Shown here: positions 52,372 through 63,933 of the stretch, piece by piece
Position numbering within the stretch: position 1 is the stretch's first letter
Layout: every line of letters starts with the position of its first letter
Source: Pararhodobacter oceanensis
Lineage (GTDB): Bacteria > Pseudomonadota > Alphaproteobacteria > Rhodobacterales > Rhodobacteraceae
Assembly (NCBI RefSeq): GCF_003076755.1
Contig: NZ_QDKM01000001.1
Location: 806,001-870,000 of the forward strand
Reading direction: 5' to 3'
DNA: 64,000 nucleotides
Notes under the pieces: model-generated
What the model was told of the DNA's origin: nothing
The model's input: the letters and a program-made list of their open reading frames with translations, nothing else
The model's database searches: none
Program-made: the position numbers and the translations under genes

Positions 52372-53178
52372 TCAGCCATCCCGCTCCATGATCCATTCCA
52401 CTTCGGGCGCGGCGACAAAGCGCCATTTGCGCTTGGGTCCGGCCATGACGTTGAGGTAATACATCTCGAACCCGTAAGGGGCGCCGCAGGGGTGGTGGCC
52501 ACGGGGCACGCAGACCACATCGCCGTCCGAGACCGCCATGGTTTCATCAAGGCTGCGGTCATCGGTATAGACCCGCTGGATGCCAAATCCCGAGGCGGGG
52601 TTGAGCCGGTGGTAATAGGTTTCCTCAAGATAGGTGATGCGGGGATAGTCATCCTCGTCGTGACGGTGGCTGGGAAAGGACGACCAATTGCCCGCCGGTG
52701 TAAACACCTCGGTGACCAACAGGCTGTCGCAGTAATCCTCGTTTTCCATCGCGATGTTATTGATATAGCGCGTGTTTGCGCCTTTGCCGCGCGGGGTCAG
52801 GGTGATGCCATCCGGTCCAATTCGGCGCGCCTCGTGGCCGCCCATACCCGGCGCCGAGCAGACCGCGATGATGCAATCGGTATCTGCCCTGGCCTCCCAT
52901 TCGGTGCCGTTGGGCAGATAGAGGCAATGCGGCGCGGTTTTGTCGAACACATTCATCCGCTCGCCCAGCACACCCCAGTCCTGCCCCGCGCCGGTGATCT
53001 GCGCGCGGCCTTCCACCATCACCAGAATGACTTCGCGGTCTCCGGTTGCCTCGGCGGCCCTGTCACCTGCATTCAGCCGGTAAAGCGAAAAGCCGACATA
53101 GCGCCACCCGGCGCTTTCGGGCGTGATCTGGTGGACCTTGCCACGGGTTCCAAAGGGTTTCTTGAGAAGATCGGGCAT
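52372..53178 (-). CDS. iolB: 5-deoxy-glucuronate isomerase
   Basis: 268 residues, bicupin IolB/KduI family. SHRHDEDDYPRITYLEETYYHRL carries the metal-binding His/His/Glu, and GDVVCVPRGHHPCGAPYGFEMYYLNVMAG is the second cupin core. It converts 5-deoxy-glucuronate to 2-deoxy-5-keto-gluconate in myo-inositol breakdown. The ATG at 53178 has GAGGCGTGAT upstream. It is the last gene of the long inositol/moc operon, eight bases after iolE. Confidence 0.95.
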   Translation of the reverse strand: MPDLLKKPFGTRGKVHQITPESAGWRYVGFSLYRLNAGDRAAEATGDREVILVMVEGRAQITGAGQDWGVLGERMNVFDKTAPHCLYLPNGTEWEARADTDCIIAVCSAPGMGGHEARRIGPDGITLTPRGKGANTRYINNIAMENEDYCDSLLVTEVFTPAGNWSSFPSHRHDEDDYPRITYLEETYYHRLNPASGFGIQRVYTDDRSLDETMAVSDGDVVCVPRGHHPCGAPYGFEMYYLNVMAGPKRKWRFVAAPEVEWIMERDG

Positions 53179-53186
53179 ATCACGCC

Positions 53187-54092
53187 TCATCGTTGAATGG
53201 TTAGGCCAGAGCGGTGACATATCTGGGTGATATGGTCGTATCCGAGTTTTGAATAGGCAAAGGGATCGGCTTTGGCCGGGTCCTGTTCGGCCTCGACCAC
53301 GATCCAGCCGTTGTAATCCATCGCCTTCAAGGCATCGGTGACGGCCTGAAAGTCGATGCAGCCTTGGGCATCGCCGGGCACGGAAAACACCCCTGCCGCC
53401 ACCCCATCAAGGAAACTCCGGTCTTCGGCATGAACCCAATCCAGAACCGGCTGGCGCACATCCTTGAAATGGACATGACCCACCCTGTGGCCCCATTTGT
53501 CCAGCACCGCCAAAGGGTCCGCCCCGGCAAAATGCAAATGGCCGGTGTCATAGAGCAGGGCCAGCGCGTCGTCGCTTCCCTCCATCAGCCAGTCGATATC
53601 TTCGGCATCCTGAACCATCGCGCCCATATGGTGATGATAGGCCAGAGCACAGCCCTGATCGGCGGACCATTTGGCAAGCTCGGACAGTTTGGCGGCATAG
53701 GCGATCACCTCATCACGGCCCAGCTTCGGGCGGCGCGACACAGGTGTGTTTAGCGCACCCTGAATGGAGTTCGAGCATTCCGCATAGACGACGCAGGGCG
53801 CCTCCAGCGCGGCGAATTGCTCAACCTGCTGGCGGATGGCGTCTTTCTCCTCTGCCAGCGAGGCAGTGAGCAAATTGCCCGAACACCAGCCACCACAGAG
53901 CGCCACGCCAAAACGGTCCAGATAGGTCCGCAGCCCGTCGGTATCGGCAGGCATGCGGCGGCCACGCTCGACCCCCGCATAGCCGATGCGTGCCGCGTCC
54001 TTCATTGCGCCTTCGGTGGTGAAACCCGCGGTCAGGTCTGGCAGGTCATCATTCTGCCATGCAACCAGCGATATGCCTAGTCTCACCGCCAT
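53187..54092 (-). CDS. iolE: myo-inosose-2 dehydratase
   Basis: 301 residues of the xylose-isomerase-like TIM barrel. AYHHHMGAMVQDAEDIDWLM, LLYDTGHLHFAGADPLAVLD, VGHVHFKDVRQPVL and VVEAEQDPAKADPFAYSKLG supply the metal ligands and IolE signature. It dehydrates 2-keto-myo-inositol to the 3D-trihydroxycyclohexane-dione. Its ATG shares a base with the iolD stop (TGATG). Confidence 0.95.
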   Translation of the reverse strand: MAVRLGISLVAWQNDDLPDLTAGFTTEGAMKDAARIGYAGVERGRRMPADTDGLRTYLDRFGVALCGGWCSGNLLTASLAEEKDAIRQQVEQFAALEAPCVVYAECSNSIQGALNTPVSRRPKLGRDEVIAYAAKLSELAKWSADQGCALAYHHHMGAMVQDAEDIDWLMEGSDDALALLYDTGHLHFAGADPLAVLDKWGHRVGHVHFKDVRQPVLDWVHAEDRSFLDGVAAGVFSVPGDAQGCIDFQAVTDALKAMDYNGWIVVEAEQDPAKADPFAYSKLGYDHITQICHRSGLTIQR

Positions 54093-55921
54093 CAGTCGGT
54101 CCTCTGGCTGGCTTTTTTCGCCTCATATGCGGCCCGCGCCGCGGTCACTTGCGTGCGCTCCGAGACTTCGGGAACCCCGACATCCCACCATGTGCCGCCG
54201 GGTTCGCTGCTGGGGTAGGGATCGGTGTCGATGACGATGACATAGGGGCCGTTGACCTCGCCGCGTTTGGCCAACGCCGCTTCCAACTCTGCGATCGACG
54301 AGACCTTGACCGATCTCGCCCCCATCGACGCCGCATGGGCGGCAAAATCAATATCCGAGGGCTGCTGGTGAATCGTATGCTCCAGCAGGTTGTTGAACTC
54401 GGCGCCGCCAGTGTTCATTTGCAGGCGGTTGATACAGGCATAGCCGCGGTTATCGGTCACCACGACGGTAAAGCTGATCCCCATCATCGCCGCCGTCGCC
54501 ATCTCGGAATTGGCCATCATATAGGTGCCATCGCCGGTGAAACAGATCACATCCCGCACTGGCTGGGCCATCTTGATCCCCATCGCACCGGCGATCTCAT
54601 AGCCCATGCAGCTAAAGCCGTATTCCATGTGATAGGACATCGGGCGGGTCGATTTCCAAAGTTTGTGCAACTCGCCCGGCATGCTGCCAGCCGCGCAGAT
54701 CACCACGGTCTCCTCGGTCGATGCGCGCTGCACCGCACCGATCACCTGCATATCGGTCGGCAATCCATCGCCGCCGGGGGCCTCGGTCAAGGGATCTACC
54801 GCGGCGAACCATGCGGCCTTCAACCCTTCGACACCCGCAGCAACCCTAAAGGTTTCCAAGGCCTTCGACAGTTCGCTCAGTCCGATTCTGGCATCGGCCA
54901 GCAAGGGCAGCGCGTTGTGTTTGCTGGCGTCATAGGCGGCGACATTCAGACAGGCGATCCGGCGGTCTGGATGCGCGAATAACCCCCAGCTTCCGGTGGT
55001 GAAATCCTGAAACCGCGTGCCCACACCAAGTATCAGATCCGCCTCCGCGCAGACCGCATTGGCCGGTTCACCGCCAGTGACACCGATCGGACCAAGGTTC
55101 AGCGGATGATCCCATGGGAGCGCGGATTTTCCGGCCTGGGTTTCGGTAACCGGGATATTATGCGCCTCGGCAAAGCGGCGCAGCGTCTCACTTGCGCCCG
55201 AGTAATGGACCCCGCCACCGGCCACGATGACCGGGCGCTTGGCGGATTTGATCGCTTCGGCCATCGCCGCAAGCTCCGCCAGATCAGGGCGGATACGGCG
55301 CTGCCGCCAGATCTTTGGCTCGAAAAAGCTGACAGGATAGTCAAAGGCCTCGGCCTGCACGTCCTGACAGAAGGCAAGGCAAACCGGCCCGCAATCGGCG
55401 GGATCGGTCAGGATGCGAAAGGCCCGCGGCAGGGCGGTCAACAGGTGTTCAGGCCGCGAGATACGGTCGAAATACCGTGTCACCGGACGAAACACGTCAT
55501 TCGCGCTGACGGTTCCGTCGCCGAAATCCTCGATCTGCTGCAATACGGGGTCAGGGCCGCGATTGGCGAAGACATCGCCGGGCACCAAGAGAACCGGCAG
55601 CCGGTTCACATGGGCCAGCGCCGCCGCGGTCACCATATTTGTCGCCCCCGGTCCGATCGACGACGACACCATCATCGTGCGCTTGCGGCCCAATTGCTTG
55701 GCGTAGGCGATGGCGGCATGGGCCATTGTCTGCTCGTTATGCCCGCGCCAGGTCGGGAAATACGCTTTGGCGCCGTGCAGAGCCTCGCCCAGCCCCGCGA
55801 CATTGCCATGGCCGAATATCGCCCAGCAGCCAGCGATGATCGCTTCGCCCTCTTCGTTTTTCTGGGCGGCAATATAGCGGATCATTGCCTGCGCTGCGGT
55901 CAGTCTAACGGTCTTGATCAT
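54092..55921 (-). CDS. iolD: 3D-(3,5/4)-trihydroxycyclohexane-1,2-dione hydrolase
   Basis: 609 residues, thiamine-diphosphate enzyme that opens the inositol-derived ring. The N-terminal domain has GAKAYFPTWRGHNEQTMAHA with the activating Glu. The central domain is DHPLNLGPIGVTGG-like, and the C-terminal ThDP/Mg motif is GDGTYMMANSEMATA with TDNRGYACINRLQ. GGAGGATGCAGC precedes the ATG, which overlaps the end of the DUF2090 frame by four bases. Confidence 0.95.
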   Translation of the reverse strand: MIKTVRLTAAQAMIRYIAAQKNEEGEAIIAGCWAIFGHGNVAGLGEALHGAKAYFPTWRGHNEQTMAHAAIAYAKQLGRKRTMMVSSSIGPGATNMVTAAALAHVNRLPVLLVPGDVFANRGPDPVLQQIEDFGDGTVSANDVFRPVTRYFDRISRPEHLLTALPRAFRILTDPADCGPVCLAFCQDVQAEAFDYPVSFFEPKIWRQRRIRPDLAELAAMAEAIKSAKRPVIVAGGGVHYSGASETLRRFAEAHNIPVTETQAGKSALPWDHPLNLGPIGVTGGEPANAVCAEADLILGVGTRFQDFTTGSWGLFAHPDRRIACLNVAAYDASKHNALPLLADARIGLSELSKALETFRVAAGVEGLKAAWFAAVDPLTEAPGGDGLPTDMQVIGAVQRASTEETVVICAAGSMPGELHKLWKSTRPMSYHMEYGFSCMGYEIAGAMGIKMAQPVRDVICFTGDGTYMMANSEMATAAMMGISFTVVVTDNRGYACINRLQMNTGGAEFNNLLEHTIHQQPSDIDFAAHAASMGARSVKVSSIAELEAALAKRGEVNGPYVIVIDTDPYPSSEPGGTWWDVGVPEVSERTQVTAARAAYEAKKASQRTD

Positions 55922-56298
55922 GCTGCATCCTCCTGTGCGCCACGCCGCACCAACTCCCATGTTTCGCACAATTGGCGATACCGACCGGCCATTTGCGCCA
56001 CCGCTTCGGCATCGGTCATCTCGCCCTTCATCCAGGCCCGCGCCGCATCGCCAAAGATCGTGCGACCAACCGCGAAACCTTTGACCAAAGGCTGTTTGGC
56101 GGCCATTGCGAAACTGGCCGCGAGTTCATCCTGCGGCGCATCGAGCCCAAGCACGACAATACCGCGTGTATGCGGATCATTGCGCTCGATGGCCGACACC
56201 GCATTGGCCCAGGCCGCATCGGTTTTAAATGGCTCGAGCTTCCACCAGTCGGGGTAGATCCCCGCCTCATAAAACATCTGGATCAGCCGGGACGACGT
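55918..56298 (-). CDS. C-terminal part of the IolC-fused DUF2090 domain, cut off by an in-frame amber codon
   Basis: The frame continues without shift after the TAG at 56299-56301 as TSSRLIQMFYEAGIYPDWWKL..., the normal continuation of IolC-DUF2090 fusion proteins, and ends KSFAV-type VVLGLDAPQDELAASFAMAA and LVKGFAVGRTIFGDAARAW. It includes WWKLEP, which by similarity to class I aldolases is the likely Schiff-base lysine. An internal ATG at 56277 could start it separately, but no good ribosome binding site is visible. It is either a separate piece, a readthrough product, or dead. Confidence 0.7.
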   Translation of the reverse strand, partial: TSSRLIQMFYEAGIYPDWWKLEPFKTDAAWANAVSAIERNDPHTRGIVVLGLDAPQDELAASFAMAAKQPLVKGFAVGRTIFGDAARAWMKGEMTDAEAVAQMAGRYRQLCETWELVRRGAQEDAA

Positions 56299-57831
56299 CT
56301 AGTCATTCGCCGGCGCGACCTTTGACGGGATAATCTCAAGCAGGAATTCCAGCCCGTTGCGCCGCGCGGCGGTGAACAGCCGTTTGACCCGCGCCACCTG
56401 CATCTGCGTGGTCTTCTCGCCATCATCGGGGTGACAGAAGACCAAGAGCTTCACCACATTCTCGCGCGCCCATTCCCGCAGACCGCCAAGATCCTCGCCC
56501 AGATCAGGCTCGAATTCGATCGGGCGGGAACCGGGCAATTCAGTGGGCCGCCCGATCCAAAGACCGCTTCCGCTGGCCCGGTGCAACGCCTCGCGTCCAA
56601 TGCGGTTGTCACAAAGGATCCCGTGCCCCCCCTGCCCGTCCTGCACCTGCAGCGCGGCATCAAGGCAAAGCTGTTTGAACGCGCCGCCCTTTTCCAGCGT
56701 ATACCCCTCCATCTGCTCAAGCTGCATACGGTGATCAAAGGCGAAGGCCTTGACAGATGGCCAATCGCCAGCGCGATTCGTCGCCCAATGCACCTGCTCC
56801 AACTCCGTGTCGTTGCGCAGATCGGGGCGTTTGATCCCGCGCTCGAGGAAAAACTGTAGCTCTTCCCAGCTTGGATAGGCGGGCGTGCAGCCGTGCCGCG
56901 AGACAGCGAAGGCGCCGCAGGCATTGGCGTAGGTCAAAGCCGTCGGCCAGTCGGCCCCGTCAAGCCATCCCTTGAGCAGGCCCGACATGAACCCGTCGCC
57001 CGCGCCCAAGACGTTGAACACTTCGATCGGAAAGCCGGGACCGGCCTGCCCCGCGTCCAGACTGTCAGGAATGTCACCGGCAAAGGCCACCGCGCCATCG
57101 GCGCCGCGCTTGCAGACCAGCGACGCCCCCGATACCGCCCGCACCGCGCGCAAGGCGGCAAGCGTATCGGTGGACCCGCCGGCGATATGGAACTCTTCCT
57201 CGGTGCCGACGATCAGATCGAACAGATGCAAGCTGGCCTGCAATTTCTCCGTCACCGCCGCGCTTTCGACAAAGCGGCTTTCGCCCTCGCCATGCCCCGC
57301 CACGCCCCAAAGGTTGGGACGGTAGTCAATGTCGAGCGCGGTCTGCATATTGTTTGCACGGGCGATCTCCAGCGCCTTGCGTGTCGCCGCCTCCACCTGT
57401 GGATTGCTCAGATGCGTTCCGGTCGCCACCACCGCACGGGCCGAGGTGATGAACCCCTCGTCCACATCATCGCAGGTCAGCCCCATATCCGCGCAATTCT
57501 CTCGGTAAAAGATCAGCGGGAACTGCTCACTGTCGCGAATGCCCAGCAGCACCAGCGCGGTCAGCCGCTCGGGATCGACCTTTACCCCGTCGGTGTTCAC
57601 CCCCTCGCGCCGCAACTGCTCGATGATGAACCGGCCCATATGCTCATCGCCGACGCCGGTGATGACCGCGGATTTCATACCCAGCCGCGCGGTGCCACAG
57701 GCGATATTGGTCGGGGAACCGCCGATATATTTATCGAACGATCCCATGTCCTCCAACCGCCCGCCAATCTGCGCGCCATAGAGATCAACCGAGGACCGGC
57801 CGATGGTGATAAGGTCAAGTGCTTTGGTCAT
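56299..57831 (-). CDS. iolC: 5-dehydro-2-deoxygluconokinase with truncated DUF2090 domain
   Basis: 510 residues to the TAG. PfkB kinase domain: ITIGRSSVDLYGAQIGGRL, GGSPTNIACGTARLG and the ATP/anion-hole motif NVLGAGDGFMSGLLKG. It phosphorylates 2-deoxy-5-keto-gluconate. From about residue 330 a DUF2090 aldolase-like domain begins (WPSVKAFAFDHRMQLEQMEG) and is interrupted at ...KVAPAND-stop. Homologues of this fusion are about 640 residues. GAGGAGACTGAT precedes the ATG. The kinase half looks intact. Confidence 0.9.
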   Translation of the reverse strand: MTKALDLITIGRSSVDLYGAQIGGRLEDMGSFDKYIGGSPTNIACGTARLGMKSAVITGVGDEHMGRFIIEQLRREGVNTDGVKVDPERLTALVLLGIRDSEQFPLIFYRENCADMGLTCDDVDEGFITSARAVVATGTHLSNPQVEAATRKALEIARANNMQTALDIDYRPNLWGVAGHGEGESRFVESAAVTEKLQASLHLFDLIVGTEEEFHIAGGSTDTLAALRAVRAVSGASLVCKRGADGAVAFAGDIPDSLDAGQAGPGFPIEVFNVLGAGDGFMSGLLKGWLDGADWPTALTYANACGAFAVSRHGCTPAYPSWEELQFFLERGIKRPDLRNDTELEQVHWATNRAGDWPSVKAFAFDHRMQLEQMEGYTLEKGGAFKQLCLDAALQVQDGQGGHGILCDNRIGREALHRASGSGLWIGRPTELPGSRPIEFEPDLGEDLGGLREWARENVVKLLVFCHPDDGEKTTQMQVARVKRLFTAARRNGLEFLLEIIPSKVAPAND

Positions 57832-57844
57832 ATCAGTCTCCTCG

Positions 57845-58729
57845 TCAGCCCATGCGCTCTGAGGCGTATGAGCCGGGTGATGGCGGGAAAACCACCGTCT
57901 TGTTGCCATTGATGAACACCCGCCCGTTCACATGGGCGTGGATCGCGCGGGCCAAGACCTGTGCCTCGACATCGCGCCCCAGCGAGACGTAATCCCTGGG
58001 CGATTGGGCATGGGTGACACGCACGATATCCTGCTCGATGACCGGCCCCTCATCGAGGTCGGCGGTCACATAATGCGAGGTCGCGCCGATCAGCTTCACG
58101 CCGCGCTCGAAGGCCTGTTTATAAGGGTTCGCGCCCTTGAACGACGGCAGGAAAGAATGGTGGATGTTGATGATCCGCCCCGACATTTTCTGGCACATCT
58201 CGTCGGACAGGATCTGCATGTAACGCGCCAGAACGATCAGCTCGGCGCCGGTCTCCTCGACCACAGCCATGATGCGGGCTTCGGCATCGGGCTTGTTCTC
58301 CTTGGTGACCTTGATGCAGTGAAACGGGATATCACTGTTCACCACGTCCTTCTGGTAATCCATATGGTTCGAGATCACGCCGACAATCTCGACCGGCAGC
58401 GCCCCGATCCGCGCCCGATACAGCAGATCATTCAGGCAATGGCCAAAGCGCGACACCATGATGATGACCCTGCGCTTGGCGCTTTCGTCAAAGAACGCGG
58501 ACTCCATGCCGAATTGCTCTGCCACCGGGGCAAAATGTTCGGTCAGCGCATCCAGTCCGCGCCCCTCTTCCGACTGAAAGCTGACGCGCATAAAGAAATT
58601 GCCGGTCTCGCCATCATCGAATTGCGCGCTGTCGGTAATGTTGCAGCCCTGATCCGCCAGAAAACCCGAGATAGCAGCGACAATGCCGCGGCGGCTGTTG
58701 CATTGAACGCGGAGGGCGAATTTGGTCAT
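57845..58729 (-). CDS. purU: Formyltetrahydrofolate deformylase
   Basis: 294 residues. An N-terminal ACT domain (FALRVQCNSRRGIVAAISGFLADQGCNI) and a formyltransferase-fold hydrolase with NIHHSFLPSFKGANPYKQA and the catalytic Asp in DLDEGPVIEQDIVRV. It hydrolyses 10-formyl-THF to formate and THF. This is not a usual inositol gene; here it lies 13 bases before iolC and 53 after iolG, clearly within the operon. AAGGT precedes the ATG at 58729. Confidence 0.93.
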   Translation of the reverse strand: MTKFALRVQCNSRRGIVAAISGFLADQGCNITDSAQFDDGETGNFFMRVSFQSEEGRGLDALTEHFAPVAEQFGMESAFFDESAKRRVIIMVSRFGHCLNDLLYRARIGALPVEIVGVISNHMDYQKDVVNSDIPFHCIKVTKENKPDAEARIMAVVEETGAELIVLARYMQILSDEMCQKMSGRIINIHHSFLPSFKGANPYKQAFERGVKLIGATSHYVTADLDEGPVIEQDIVRVTHAQSPRDYVSLGRDVEAQVLARAIHAHVNGRVFINGNKTVVFPPSPGSYASERMG

Positions 58730-58782
58730 CGGTCGTCTACCTTCAAGTATTTGCGCCAAGACATTGCGGCACAGGAACGGGA

Positions 58783-59778
58783 CTAGATCTCGGCAAGCCG
58801 CACCGGCGCGCCGGACGCGAGCGAGCGGCTCGCGGCCTCGGCCATGGCGAGGGCCGCAACACCATCAGCAAGCGAGACCGGCACCGATGTGCCCGCCACA
58901 ATGGCCTCGACAAAAGCGGCCCATTCGGCGGCATAGGCCGGCATATAGCGTTCCAGAAAGAAATAGGTCGGCTTGGCGCTGATCACCCCGTTGGCGGTGG
59001 ATTTCACCACGGTGTTCTCCAGCATGTTCTGCGCTTGCAGCAGCCCCTCGGACCCCAACAACTCGATCCGCTGGTCATGCCCGTAGACCGCGCGGCGCGA
59101 GTTCTTGATGACGCCGATACGCCCGTCGGCATAGCTCAGGGTGACAACCGCGGTATCCACGTCACCCGCCGCCCCGATCTCGGGGTCGACAATCGACGAG
59201 GCCATGGCCGAGACCGACACCGGCGCCGCGCCCATGATGAAATTCGCCATGTCAAAATCATGGATCATCATGTCGCGGAACAAACCGCCCGAGACCTTGA
59301 TATAGGCGACCGGCGGCGGCGCGGGATCAAACGAGGTGATCGACAGCAGTTCAGCCTTGCCGATCTCACCCGCATCGAGCGCAGCCTTCAACGCGCCAAA
59401 GCCGGGATCAAAGCGGCGGTTGAAGCCGATCATAACCGGCTGGCTGGTTTTGGCGGCGGCTTGCTGGCAGGCGCGCGCGCGCTCAAGGCTCAGATCAACC
59501 GGCTTTTCGCATAGAACCGCCTTGCCCGCCGCCGTGGCGGCCTCGATCAGGTCGGAATGCGTGTCGGTCGATGTTGCGATCAGCACCGCGTCGATCTCAG
59601 GGTCGGCGATGATCTCGGCGGTGCTGCGGGCCGCGCAACCATAGTCTGATGCCAGCTTTTCAGCCATATCGGGATAATGGTCCGAGACCGCCACCAGCCG
59701 GCTTGCCGGATGGGTGGAAATCGCCGCCGCATGCACACCGGCAATGCGGCCAGCCCCAAGAAGTCCTACTTTGATCAT
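58783..59778 (-). CDS. iolG: Inositol 2-dehydrogenase
   Basis: 331 residues, Gfo/Idh/MocA family. GLLGAGRIAGVHAAAI binds NAD, LCEKPVDLSLERA holds the catalytic Lys, and LFRDMMIHDFDMANFIMG the Asp/His pair. It oxidises myo-inositol (or a related cyclitol) to inosose, the entry step of the Iol pathway. Substrate width (scyllo-inositol, chiro-inositol, inosamines) cannot be read from sequence. Confidence 0.92.
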   Translation of the reverse strand: MIKVGLLGAGRIAGVHAAAISTHPASRLVAVSDHYPDMAEKLASDYGCAARSTAEIIADPEIDAVLIATSTDTHSDLIEAATAAGKAVLCEKPVDLSLERARACQQAAAKTSQPVMIGFNRRFDPGFGALKAALDAGEIGKAELLSITSFDPAPPPVAYIKVSGGLFRDMMIHDFDMANFIMGAAPVSVSAMASSIVDPEIGAAGDVDTAVVTLSYADGRIGVIKNSRRAVYGHDQRIELLGSEGLLQAQNMLENTVVKSTANGVISAKPTYFFLERYMPAYAAEWAAFVEAIVAGTSVPVSLADGVAALAMAEAASRSLASGAPVRLAEI

Positions 59779-59847
59779 TCTGTTGTTCTTTCAATACCGG
59801 GAGAAGCCTCCCGCGGCGCGCGCATTCATCCGCGCCAATGGGTCGGG

Positions 59848-60666
59848 TTAGCCTTGCACATTGGCGAGAAAGGCGTCGAATTCATCATCCTTGATCGCCA
59901 CCGTATGCTCGGCGGCCGGATAGCTGCCCGCATCCACATCGGCCTTGTAAGCGGTGAAGGCGGCGATGCGTTCCTGCTGCAGCTTGTCCAGCAGGCCGGA
60001 CATATCGCGGTAGATCTTGCCATGGCGCGGCTTGTGGTTAACGCCGTAGCCGCAGACATCCTCGGTAAACAGATACTGCGCATCCGCATATTTGCCCGAC
60101 CCCATCCCCAGCGTGATCAGTGAGGAGTTCTCGCTGAGATATTGGCCGATACGGTCCGGCACCACCTCCAGCTCGGCGGCAAAGACGCCGATCTCTTCCA
60201 TCTTGCGGGCGTGGCGCCAGAGCGCGGCGGCCTCATCCGCCGTTTTGCCCACCGCCCGCCATCCGGTCCAAGTGATATAGGACGGCGTCAGTCCGATATG
60301 GCCGACAACAGCGATATGGTTGTCACAGAGCACCTTCTGGATGTCGTAGGAGGCCGCGCAATAAAAGCAGTCGCCGCCCAAGGCCGCATAGTGGAAGGCG
60401 GCGCGCAGATAATCCTCGGCGGTGGCCAAGGGACGGCCATTGAACTGGCCCCAACCGCCATAGGGCAGACCGACTTGCACAAAGCAGTCCCCCGCCGCCT
60501 CGCGCATTTCGGCATCAAACACCTTGCCTTCGATCGACAGCATATGGATGCCTGCCGCCGCAGCCGCCGCAGCCTCATCCGGCGTGCTGACATAAAGCAT
60601 CGAGATTTTCTCACCGCGCTGTTTCATCTTGCGGATGTCATGGGCGTGGGGGCGATTGTGATACAT
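59848..60666 (-). CDS. Divergent PanB-like (ketopantoate hydroxymethyltransferase superfamily) protein
   Basis: 272 residues. The PanB fold is recognisable from VVGHIGLTPSYITWTG (compare GHLGLTP in PanB; His123), AELEVVPDRI (Glu167) and LGMGSGKYADAQ (GIGAG region). However, the metal aspartates of PanB (GDSLG and ADLPF) align with SIEGKV and VGLPYG, and the MVKIEG lysine/glutamate with FYCAAS, so key catalytic residues are missing. It is probably not a genuine pantothenate enzyme. Its place in the inositol/moc operon suggests a related one-carbon or retro-aldol step. Confidence 0.7.
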   Translation of the reverse strand: MYHNRPHAHDIRKMKQRGEKISMLYVSTPDEAAAAAAAGIHMLSIEGKVFDAEMREAAGDCFVQVGLPYGGWGQFNGRPLATAEDYLRAAFHYAALGGDCFYCAASYDIQKVLCDNHIAVVGHIGLTPSYITWTGWRAVGKTADEAAALWRHARKMEEIGVFAAELEVVPDRIGQYLSENSSLITLGMGSGKYADAQYLFTEDVCGYGVNHKPRHGKIYRDMSGLLDKLQQERIAAFTAYKADVDAGSYPAAEHTVAIKDDEFDAFLANVQG

Positions 60667-60684
60667 GGTTGACGTCCTTGTCGT

Positions 60685-61872
60685 TCAGGCGGCGCGAAGT
60701 AGCCGTTTGAGGTTGTGTTCCGGGTCTTGCAGCACAGCCGGATCATGGGCGGCCCCGCGTGCGATCAGTTTTTCAAAAATCGAGATGTCCTTGGCGATGC
60801 TATTGCCGGACCCGATGCCGGCCACGGCGGTCAGACAGCCCTGCGCATTGCACTGGAATAACAGGCACTGGCCCGAGACCGTGGGGCGCGTATGAACAGG
60901 GGCGGAGATGTCAAACAGGCCCGCCACCTGCAGCGTCAAATCATACTGGTCCGACCAGAACCACGGCACCGCATTATAGGCGCTGGCCTCGCCCAGCATC
61001 GCCGCCGCCGCATGCGCACCCTGATCCTGTGCCGCTTTCCAGCTTTCCAGCCGCAGCCTTGCCCCGCGCCAGGTGAAATTGCAGCAATCTCCCGCGGCAT
61101 AGATATGCGGATCGGAGGTCTGGAAAGACTCGTTCACCACGATGCCATTGGTCACCGCCAATCCGGTCTTATGGGCCAGTTCGGTGTTTGGCAGCGCGCC
61201 AACGCCGGCGATCACCAGATCGAACCCCTGCACGGTGCCATCAGCCAGCGTGATGCTGGTCGCCTCGGCTGTGGCAACGCCGGTTTCAGTCAGGATCGTC
61301 ACCCCCTCGGCCGCGTGCCGCTGGTGCAGGATATCCGCGATCGGCGCGGGCACGGCGCGTTGCAATAGCCGCGCGGCCCCTTCGACAACGGTCACCTCGG
61401 CACCGGCTTTGACCGCCGTTGCCGCGAGTTCCAGACCAATGAACCCGCCACCGATGATACCGATGCGCGCGCCCGGCTTGAGCTGCGCCATAATCGCGGC
61501 GGCATCCTCATCGGTGCGCAGGGTCAGGCAGGTCTCCATACCCGAAAACACCCGCGCCCTTGCCCCGGTCGCAATCAGCAACCGGTCATAATCCAACGTC
61601 TCGCCATCAGCCAGCGCCACGGTTTTATGCGACGAATCGATATAGAGCGCGGTCTGACCGCTGCGCAGATGGATATCCGCCTCGGCAAATGCCGCTGCGC
61701 TCTTGATCAGTATTGGCGCTGACCCGAGGCGCTTGGACAGCGGCGGGCGTTCATAGGGCAAACCGGCCTCGCCATTCACCAGCGCAACCGAACCGCCATA
61801 GCCTCTGGCGCGCAGTTCGAACGCGGCCCTGACACCGCATTCCCCTGCCCCGATGATGACAATCCCTGTCAT
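60685..61872 (-). CDS. Ferredoxin reductase-type FAD oxidoreductase (MocF-like)
   Basis: 395 residues. IVIIGAGECGVRAAFELRARG (FAD motif), LPYERPPLSKRL and IGIIGGGFIGLELAATAVKAG (NADH motif), DPHIYAAGDCCNF. This is the class that reduces Rieske ferredoxins of oxygenase systems (rubredoxin/putidaredoxin reductase type). With the MocE ferredoxin two genes away it would pass electrons from NADH to an oxygenase not in this window. Confidence 0.85.
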   Translation of the reverse strand: MTGIVIIGAGECGVRAAFELRARGYGGSVALVNGEAGLPYERPPLSKRLGSAPILIKSAAAFAEADIHLRSGQTALYIDSSHKTVALADGETLDYDRLLIATGARARVFSGMETCLTLRTDEDAAAIMAQLKPGARIGIIGGGFIGLELAATAVKAGAEVTVVEGAARLLQRAVPAPIADILHQRHAAEGVTILTETGVATAEATSITLADGTVQGFDLVIAGVGALPNTELAHKTGLAVTNGIVVNESFQTSDPHIYAAGDCCNFTWRGARLRLESWKAAQDQGAHAAAAMLGEASAYNAVPWFWSDQYDLTLQVAGLFDISAPVHTRPTVSGQCLLFQCNAQGCLTAVAGIGSGNSIAKDISIFEKLIARGAAHDPAVLQDPEHNLKRLLRAA

Positions 61873-61875
61873 GGC

Positions 61876-62649
61876 CTACACCGTGAAGGCAGCGCGAAAG
61901 GCGTCGAGCGCTTGCTCCGGGCGGGTTTTGGCAAAGGCTTCAAGCCCCACCGGCCCATCATAGCCCATATCCGCCAAGGCGCGCGCGATCACCGGCCAGT
62001 TCATCTCGCCGGTGCCCGGTTCGCACCGGCCGGGATTATCCGCGACCTGCACCTCGCCAATCCACGGCAGACAGGCTTTGGCCCAACGGATCACATCCCC
62101 CTCGCCGATCTGCGTGTGATAAAGATCAAGGTTGATCCGCAACTGCGGGCGGTCAACCGCGGACACCAGCGACAGCACATCAGCCGTGCTGTTGAACGGG
62201 CAGCCGGGATGTTCGCGCAGATTGAGGTTTTCGAGGGTGAAAATGACCCCCTCTTCCTCGGCCAGATCGCAAATCCGGTGCAGCGTATCCCGCGCCCGCA
62301 GCCACATGCCCGGCGCCACATGCGCGATCTGCGGCACAGGGATACCGTGATCGCCAAGTCCGGTGCCATGCAGGTTCAACCGCTGCACCCCCAGCCGTTT
62401 GCCGACCTGAACCGTCTCGCGCGCCGAGGCGAGCAGCAGCTCGGCCCCCGCCTCATCGGCAAGACGCCCCTCAAGATAGCCGTTCATGATGGTGAAACTG
62501 GCGCCGGTGGCGGCCAGCGCGTCCAGATCCCACGTAGGCCAGTTCCACAGACCGACGCCAAAACCCATCTCGTGCAGCGCCGCCGCCCGCCAATGGATGG
62601 GCCGGTCCTGCCAAAGCATTTCGGCACAGGCCGAGAGTTGAAAGCCCAT
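61876..62649 (-). CDS. Sugar phosphate isomerase/epimerase-like TIM-barrel protein
   Basis: 257 residues, AP-endonuclease-2/xylose-isomerase-like fold close to hydroxypyruvate isomerases. LENLNLREHPGCPF (metal Glu), INLDLYHTQIGEGDV (Asp/His), EVQVADNPGRCEPGTGEMNW and VGLEAFAKT (Glu) are the metal site. It probably isomerises or dehydrates an inositol-derived keto sugar. It sits tightly between mocE and the reductase gene (2- and 3-base gaps). Confidence 0.8.
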   Translation of the reverse strand: MGFQLSACAEMLWQDRPIHWRAAALHEMGFGVGLWNWPTWDLDALAATGASFTIMNGYLEGRLADEAGAELLLASARETVQVGKRLGVQRLNLHGTGLGDHGIPVPQIAHVAPGMWLRARDTLHRICDLAEEEGVIFTLENLNLREHPGCPFNSTADVLSLVSAVDRPQLRINLDLYHTQIGEGDVIRWAKACLPWIGEVQVADNPGRCEPGTGEMNWPVIARALADMGYDGPVGLEAFAKTRPEQALDAFRAAFTV

Positions 62650-62651
62650 GG

Positions 62652-62963
62652 TCAGATCTCCACGAAAACCCGGCCATTTTCGACCTTGGTTGGATATGTG
62701 TGCAGGTTTTCACAGGCAGGCGGTGTCTCGACCTCACCATTGGTGCAGTCAAAGATCGAGGAATGCTTCGGGCATTCGATCGTTGCTTCGACCACCAGAC
62801 CGTCGCTCAGATGCACGTCTTCATGGGTGCATAACCCGTCGGTGCAGTAATAGTTGTCTTCATGATCGCGCACGATGATGAAGGTCCGCGCGCCGTGGTC
62901 GAAACGGATCACGTCTTCTTCGTCGATATCGGTGGTTGCGCAGGCGTCTACCCAATTGGCCAT
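62652..62963 (-). CDS. mocE: Rieske-type [2Fe-2S] ferredoxin MocE
   Basis: 103 residues. C45-x-H47 in LCTHEDVHLSDG and C64-xx-H67 in ECPKHSSIFDCTNG form the Rieske cluster site. The small single-domain form is the electron carrier of a multicomponent oxygenase; in Sinorhizobium meliloti, MocE with MocD and MocF demethylates the rhizopine 3-O-methyl-scyllo-inosamine. GAGGCAAGA precedes the ATG. No oxygenase partner is in the window. Confidence 0.85.
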   Translation of the reverse strand: MANWVDACATTDIDEEDVIRFDHGARTFIIVRDHEDNYYCTDGLCTHEDVHLSDGLVVEATIECPKHSSIFDCTNGEVETPPACENLHTYPTKVENGRVFVEI

Positions 62964-62973
62964 TCTTGCCTCC

Positions 62974-63933
62974 TCAAATGTCTTGTGGCTTGTAATCAGC
63001 GGCGGCGGAGGGCATCACGCCCTGCAGAAGCGACACGGATTTCTCCAATCCTTCCAGCGAGTTGAGCAGAACGTCCTCATGCTCGATACTCAGCCATCCG
63101 TCATAGCCGCTCATCTTGAGGCGATAGCAGAACTGCCGCCACCATTCCTCGCCATGGCCGAACCCAAGGGTGATATAGGACCAACTGCGCGCCGGAATAT
63201 CCATCAGACTGCCGGTCTCGAGTAGGCTGGTCACCGCCTGCACGGGGGCATTCAACATCGTGTCCTTGGCGTGGACATGATAGATCGCCTCGCCCAGGGC
63301 TTCGGCGGCCAGCAGCGGATCGGCACCCATCCAGAACAGATGGCTGGGGTCAAGATTCGCCCCGATCACCGGCCCGACCGCCGCGCGCAGTTTCAGCAGC
63401 GACGGCACGTTGTAAACGCATTGATTGCCATGCAGCTCCAGCGCGATTTTCTCGACACCATGCGCTTTGGCAAAGGCGGCAATCTCGGTCCAGAAGGGGA
63501 TCAGTTTCTCGTGCCATTGATAGCGCAGGATCTCCTGCGTCTCCGGCGGCCAGCTGGAAACCACCCAGTTGGGCATCGTATCCTGTGCTGATCCGGCGGG
63601 CAGACCGGACATGCTGCAGACCGTTTTGATCCCCATCTCACCGGCCAGACGAATGGTTTTCTTCAGATCCTCGCCCTGTTTCAGGTCGGTCGGATGCAGC
63701 GGATTGCCATTGGCATTGAGACTGATGATCTCAAGCCCGCGGTCGGTGAATGCCTGCTGAAACGCCGCCTGCGCCGCCGGATTGCCCAGCAGATCGTCGA
63801 TTTTGCAATGCGGCGCGGTCGACCAGCCGCAGGTGTTGACCTCGACCCCCGAAACACCCATGCGGGCGGCGTGATCCAGCATTTCGGTGAATGACATCGC
63901 GCCAAGACTGTCGCTTACGAATCCAAGTTTCAT
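62974..63933 (-). CDS. mocC: MocC-like sugar phosphate isomerase/epimerase
   Basis: 319 residues, xylose-isomerase-like TIM barrel. GFVSDSLGAMSFTEMLDHAAR starts the fold; IALELHGNQCVYN (Glu), IGANLDPSHLFWMGADPL (Asp/His), IYHVHAKDTMLN (His) and LSIEHEDVLLN (Glu) carry the metal ligands. It resembles MocC of rhizopine catabolism and IolE. Its ATG overlaps the upstream gene's stop codon (ATGA). Confidence 0.8.
   Translation of the reverse strand: MKLGFVSDSLGAMSFTEMLDHAARMGVSGVEVNTCGWSTAPHCKIDDLLGNPAAQAAFQQAFTDRGLEIISLNANGNPLHPTDLKQGEDLKKTIRLAGEMGIKTVCSMSGLPAGSAQDTMPNWVVSSWPPETQEILRYQWHEKLIPFWTEIAAFAKAHGVEKIALELHGNQCVYNVPSLLKLRAAVGPVIGANLDPSHLFWMGADPLLAAEALGEAIYHVHAKDTMLNAPVQAVTSLLETGSLMDIPARSWSYITLGFGHGEEWWRQFCYRLKMSGYDGWLSIEHEDVLLNSLEGLEKSVSLLQGVMPSAAADYKPQDI

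Follow-up and report, generated by a model that had tools for sequence, protein, structure and literature searches.

Does the inositol gene at this locus of Pararhodobacter oceanensis still encode a working aldolase? The stretch of DNA that we analyzed (hereafter the window; 64,000 nucleotides, positions 806,001 to 870,000 of contig NZ_QDKM01000001.1 in RefSeq assembly GCF_003076755.1) carries on its minus strand a fusion of iolC with a DUF2090 domain, which would encode a bifunctional 5-dehydro-2-deoxygluconokinase and putative aldolase for 5-dehydro-2-deoxygluconate 6-phosphate (DKGP), and this gene is interrupted by an in-frame amber codon. We conclude, with a probability of roughly three in four, that the codon is a genuine nonsense mutation of recent origin, an ordinary loss of function without any new genetic mechanism; no other IolC-DUF2090 gene turned up in the genome. 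The original prediction had listed four options (a recent nonsense mutation, readthrough, two separate polypeptides, and a sequencing error); our analysis places the first of these at the head and the others lower. The TAG is seen in one assembly, from one strain of the species.

The interrupted frame and the aldolase barrel

Translation of positions 55918 to 57831 of the window gave 638 codons, 637 of which make up the fusion itself (natural TGA at 55918-55920), with the TAG at codon 511 (56299-56301) as the sole internal stop and an identical reading frame on either side of it. The 510 residues before the stop covered positions 5-514 of the NCBIfam profile NF047869 (620.3 bits versus a cut-off of 600), and the 126 residues after it covered positions 523-585 (57.1 bits). 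The Pfam DUF2090 domain was split in the same way, into positions 1-191 upstream and 196-307 downstream. These matches bear out the earlier description of an IolC-DUF2090 fusion with a single amber codon and no shift of frame. The gene is the same as the NF047869 fusions in length, domain order, conserved residues, and iol operon context, and it differs from them by one in-frame TAG, which splits the aldolase domain and breaks the uninterrupted frame that these fusions have across their kinase and aldolase domains. The part beyond the stop was 71 to 83% identical to its counterpart in 15 near relatives, which indicates that this frame is not open by chance. In a whole-genome Pfam scan, the one DUF2090 match was this domain, with the TAG inside it.

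We then considered what the stop takes from the aldolase. A model of the DUF2090 domain read through the TAG, based on an alignment with 54 of the 86 usable relatives, had a barrel fold and a mean predicted local distance difference test score of 92.2, with strands at domain residues 37-41, 80-83, 102-106, 135-143, 172-179, 206-209, 234-239, and 260-265. The TAG is domain residue 188, directly ahead of helix 5 (189-199). By this model, truncation would keep strands 1 to 5 with Lys461 and Glu499 and take away helix 5, strands 6 to 8, and Lys531, all three residues being invariant in 89 of 89 relatives. The expected product, which ends past strand 5, would thus fall short of a complete (beta/alpha)8 barrel, and only readthrough would supply one. 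The nearest solved folds to the read-through model were LacD tagatose-1,6-bisphosphate aldolase and a sulfohexulose-1-phosphate aldolase from Paracoccus (PDB 8tnf), with Z scores of 26.9 to 28.2 (LacD up to 28.2, 8tnf up to 28.1) and root mean square deviations of 2.3 to 2.5 over 267 to 269 aligned residues, although identity was 16 to 18% and LacD, with chains of about 320 to 330 residues, is a separate protein without a kinase fusion.

Class I aldolases carry their Schiff-base lysine on strand 6. Lys531, in the motif WWKLEP, lies on strand 6 of the model and is encoded 3' of the TAG, so that the expected product lacks a strand-6 lysine and the original claim that the stop removes the WWKLEP segment held. 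The further proposal that this residue is the Schiff-base lysine is probably right, since its position in a LacD-like class I barrel and its invariance both fit, while stopping short of proof. No paper naming Lys205 as the Schiff-base lysine of LacD was among those listed by a literature search. Lys461 and Glu499 align with the catalytic Lys and Glu of LacD given in PMC9007349 (alignments to 3jrk and 3mhf, numbering shifted to 5ff7). With translation ending at codon 511, the cell would make a 510-residue protein with a full kinase domain, the first five strands of the eight-stranded aldolase barrel, and no strand-6 lysine, and the truncated aldolase would be expected to be dead.

The stop site in relatives and constraint beyond it

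Next, we looked at the aligned site in 89 fetched relatives, comprising the best 80 of at least 589 loci from genome contigs and 9 loci from other genomes (L003 and L028 are the same gene, leaving 88 independent; near the stop site the alignment is loose for the three most distant, L008 to L010). The original prediction had proposed a comparison with close relatives, and all 89 had a sense codon there. None of the 89 carried a stop at this place, as conserved readthrough would have it, or an inside stop anywhere else in the alignment; one locus flagged as interrupted (L076) proved to have its natural end there. The site was variable, with 22 different codons among the 89 relatives, and is in this respect more like a tolerant loop than a programmed site. 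In 14 of the 89 the codon was one base change away from TAG, and TAG is expected to account for 62 to 65% of the nonsense outcomes of single-base changes in this gene, so that an amber codon is unsurprising.

The nearest sequences among the best 80 of at least 589 loci were 84 to 85% identical over the protein and came from genomes named Rhodobacteraceae, Loktanella, Marivita, and an alphaproteobacterial metagenome-assembled genome. The fusion was present at high similarity in 1 of 17 congeners (G015, 81%), several of these 17 genomes being incomplete. A near copy on a plasmid was considered and discarded: 12 records matched, all at 60 to 80% identity. Across the family, 130 matches (some partial) in 119 of 394 genomes passed the DUF2090 cut-off (table counted by hand), and two of them had an inside stop, namely, the gene studied here and one of two copies in genome G319. 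The G319 copy (L210:1187-3097, contig C19) has its TAG aligned with residue 473, not 511, and stands beside a stop-free copy, the pattern that independent losses would give.

Ordinary single-nonsense pseudogenes of bacteria have one base lesion in an otherwise preserved gene. The gene here shares with them the single base lesion, the preserved remainder, and a premature stop that is absent from relatives, G319 being a second case in the family; it differs in that a second DUF2090 copy was not found in the genome-wide Pfam scan.

We then asked how well the sequence beyond the stop has been kept, using a codon table of 90 sequences (our own and 89 relatives, with L028 dropped as a copy of L003 and L210 added). 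For columns at least 95% conserved, we left out L007 (partial), L210, and one near-duplicate, so that 86 relatives remained; the gene had changed in 1 of 183 such columns in the kinase, in 0 of 81 in the aldolase before the stop, and in 2 of 46 beyond the stop, where the two changes lie close to the C terminus. Nonsynonymous (dN) and synonymous (dS) rates were compared with those of the 25 nearest relatives by whole-length identity, saturated dS values being left out. The ratio of dN after the stop to dN before it was 1.04 (0.98 ± 0.18 in the 25 relatives), and dN/dS after the stop was 0.085 (0.137 ± 0.038 in the relatives), a rough value with synonymous sites near saturation. Identity to six near relatives was 0.79 to 0.83 before the stop and 0.76 to 0.82 after it; there was a mild sign of decay in that the post-stop part was 5 to 6 points lower against L057, L058, and L059, while the two parts were about equal against the other three.

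Two observations thus weigh against a dead gene: by these measures constraint on the part beyond the stop is similar to that in relatives, and the four iol neighbors that we tested (iolD, iolE, iolB, and iolG) all exceed the cut-offs of their profiles. Relaxed selection past the stop, as a nonsense pseudogene might show, was not seen (there was no clear excess of changes), which is expected if the mutation is recent. The absence of clear decay implies that the stop is young, is a sequencing error, or is bypassed and that the gene, if dead, died recently. Under a sequencing or assembly error, the true codon in the organism would be a sense codon and its bifunctional enzyme would be normal; a single wrong base would suffice, and the good preservation of the rest of the gene and the intact iol neighbors are in keeping with this. 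However, the 986-kb contig and the 32-contig, 99.9% complete genome suggest good coverage, and base substitution errors are rare in consensus assemblies. We regard such an error as unlikely, though with a small real chance; TAG is probably the correct codon in the organism itself.

Possible readthrough or restart at the amber codon

A bypass could work through readthrough of the stop or through a suppressor tRNA, either of which would yield sufficient full-length protein, and the constraint on the post-stop part is what such a bypass would leave. Genome-wide amber recoding was ruled out, because release factor 1 (prfA) is intact (488.7 bits versus a cut-off of 423.25) and TAG ends other genes of the same operon, namely, iolG and a hydroxypyruvate-isomerase-like gene. 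TAG also terminates 13 of the 51 open reading frames selected by length in the window; this set is rough and contains the iolC-DUF2090 frame itself and some likely spurious antisense frames. For pyrrolysine, the only PylS match scored 27.5 bits, far under the cut-off of 178.15, and a structured readthrough signal was set aside, since the RNA fold around the stop was not unusual (z = -1.45; 17 of 200 shuffles folded as well).

An RNA-family search found 39 tRNAs in the genome, the same 39 at two thresholds, and ARAGORN typed all of them. The suppressor tRNA raised by the original prediction was answered in part: no CTA anticodon occurred among the 39 typed tRNAs, a set that is incomplete in that tRNA-Tyr, tRNA-Ile, and tRNA-Ala(TGC) are not among them. 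That these three were not found though the genome is rated 99.9% complete perhaps reflects an assembly gap. tRNA-Tyr is a classical source of amber suppressors, and its place in the missing part of the set is a point for readthrough. An anticodon-arm pattern used to look for a hidden tRNA-Tyr had two hits, each with 2 mismatches, and ARAGORN recognized a tRNA at neither of them. With the intact release factor, the ordinary use of TAG as a stop in the operon, the low PylS score, the unremarkable RNA fold, and no CTA anticodon in the typed set all standing against it, we hold readthrough or suppression at this codon to be very improbable.

The other form of bypass is a restart. The first start codon 3' of the TAG is an in-frame ATG encoding Met519, and ribosomes stopping at the TAG could in principle reinitiate at this ATG (56277), yielding a 119-residue chain with strands 6 to 8. 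Together with the 510-residue kinase-(beta/alpha)5 chain, it would form a translation-coupled two-chain aldolase, a very early natural split of a triosephosphate isomerase (TIM) barrel. None of the 89 relatives has Met at this place, and Met519 is the sole private Met of the protein (private meaning that no more than 2% of the others have Met there), while the relatives average 0.56 private Met; by our own post hoc arithmetic, a private Met would fall by chance at most ten codons past the stop in about 1% of cases. The break falls in a loop of the model, and the post-stop part is under constraint, as two joined chains would have it. On the other hand, we saw by eye no Shine-Dalgarno-like sequence upstream of the ATG, the Met lies inside helix 5 (512 to 522), so that seven of that helix's eleven residues would be missing from the product, no aligned relative has an inside stop, and the Met519 pattern was spotted after the fact. 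A gene fission with a restart at Met519 is therefore a slim prospect, and a working two-piece enzyme from it is unlikely. We return to a recent nonsense mutation as the preferred explanation.

Inositol breakdown and the iol operon

The weight of the stop depends on what else could cleave DKGP. No IolJ-family (PF01116) gene matched in the genome at an E value of ≤1. PMC9007349 reports fitness evidence that nine bacteria depend on IolC-DUF2090 fusions when growing on myo-inositol and proposes DUF2090 as the DKGP aldolase. This supports the suggestion, made from the sequence at the outset, that the DUF2090 domain is the strongest candidate for the IolJ step that the cluster lacks. Because the genome has no other DUF2090 gene in our scan and no PF01116 match, a real stop should block inositol breakdown past the kinase step: 5-dehydro-2-deoxygluconate would still be phosphorylated, DKGP would not be cleaved by the truncated enzyme, and growth on inositols would fail or suffer unless a different class I aldolase takes over the step.

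The genome encodes three further class I aldolases that belong to the DeoC/LacD Pfam family. The one on contig C2 scored above the threshold of a model for class I fructose-bisphosphate aldolase, and the one on contig C5 above that of DeoC, while the third, on contig C12, passed no NCBIfam cut-off and belongs to a separate sugar/polyol operon. There, this DhnA-type aldolase (L258:7362-8204, in genome G000) adjoins FGGY kinase-, GlpD-type dehydrogenase-, aldo-keto reductase-, and ribose-type ATP-binding cassette (ABC) transporter-like genes, all under NCBIfam cut-offs.

The features of the locus are collected in Table 1. The iolD start codon (ATG, 55921-55919) shares bases with the natural iolC stop in the sequence ATGA, and iolD has its own AGGAGG; from this arrangement, iolD may be translationally coupled to iolC, and early termination might also reduce iolD translation.

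Further iol operon genes and genes upstream of the operon lie at 57845-63933 of the window and at L248:1021-8383 (both minus strand). The operon includes a MocE-family Rieske ferredoxin (151 bits versus a cut-off of 136.15), a ferredoxin reductase most like dioxygenase reductases but under their cut-offs, PurU, and a ketopantoate hydroxymethyltransferase-like gene. Upstream of it are sugar-type ABC transporter genes, identified by inspection of their translations, and a protein of the fatty-acid-hydroxylase family (58.6 bits; cut-off, 31). MocDEF has a demethylating role. Together, these operon and upstream genes resemble a MocDEF-type O-demethylation of a methylated inositol with handling of one-carbon units. 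In the available passages of PMC10107442, which do not mention demethylation, mocDEF is part of rhizopine catabolism, and no MocDEF paper was among the results listed by a literature search on MocDEF demethylation.

Table 1. Features of the interrupted iolC-DUF2090 gene and its iol neighbors, in window coordinates
Feature	Position	Strand	Basis
iolC-DUF2090 fusion gene (bifunctional 5-dehydro-2-deoxygluconokinase/putative DKGP aldolase), with in-frame amber codon inside	55918..57831	-	Translation, profile matches, relatives
Codon 511, the in-frame TAG, located in the loop that joins strand 5 of the barrel to helix 5	56299..56301	-	Translation, relatives, model
Kinase domain (IolC, PfkB family), residues 1-323, intact	56863..57831	-	TIGR04382, 397.9 bits (cut-off 300)
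DUF2090 aldolase domain upstream of TAG, residues 324-510, strands 1-5, Lys461 and Glu499	56302..56862	-	PF09863 positions 1-191, model, conserved residues
DUF2090 part downstream of TAG, residues 512-637, helix 5 and strands 6-8, Lys531; translation not expected	55921..56298	-	PF09863 positions 196-307, model, conservation
Codon of Lys531 (WWKLEP), strand 6, invariant in 89/89; probable Schiff-base lysine	56239..56241	-	Model, conserved residues
Private in-frame ATG (Met519), 8 codons past TAG; possible restart codon	56275..56277	-	Sequence, alignment
iolD	54092..55921	-	TIGR04377, 891.7 bits (cut-off 715; scanned without first three residues)
iolE	53187..54092	-	TIGR04379, 369.8 bits (cut-off 290)
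iolB	52372..53220	-	TIGR04378, 348.6 bits (cut-off 205)
iolG, ends in TAG	58783..59778	-	TIGR04380, 419.6 bits (cut-off 355)

The finding is mainly a caution for annotators. Taken alone, the segment upstream of the stop (510 residues) passes the cut-off of the curated bifunctional kinase/aldolase family, so that automated pathway prediction might assign to the genome an aldolase that is probably absent from it. Should the strain still grow on inositol, it would offer a natural way to test whether DUF2090 is the DKGP aldolase and what can take its place.

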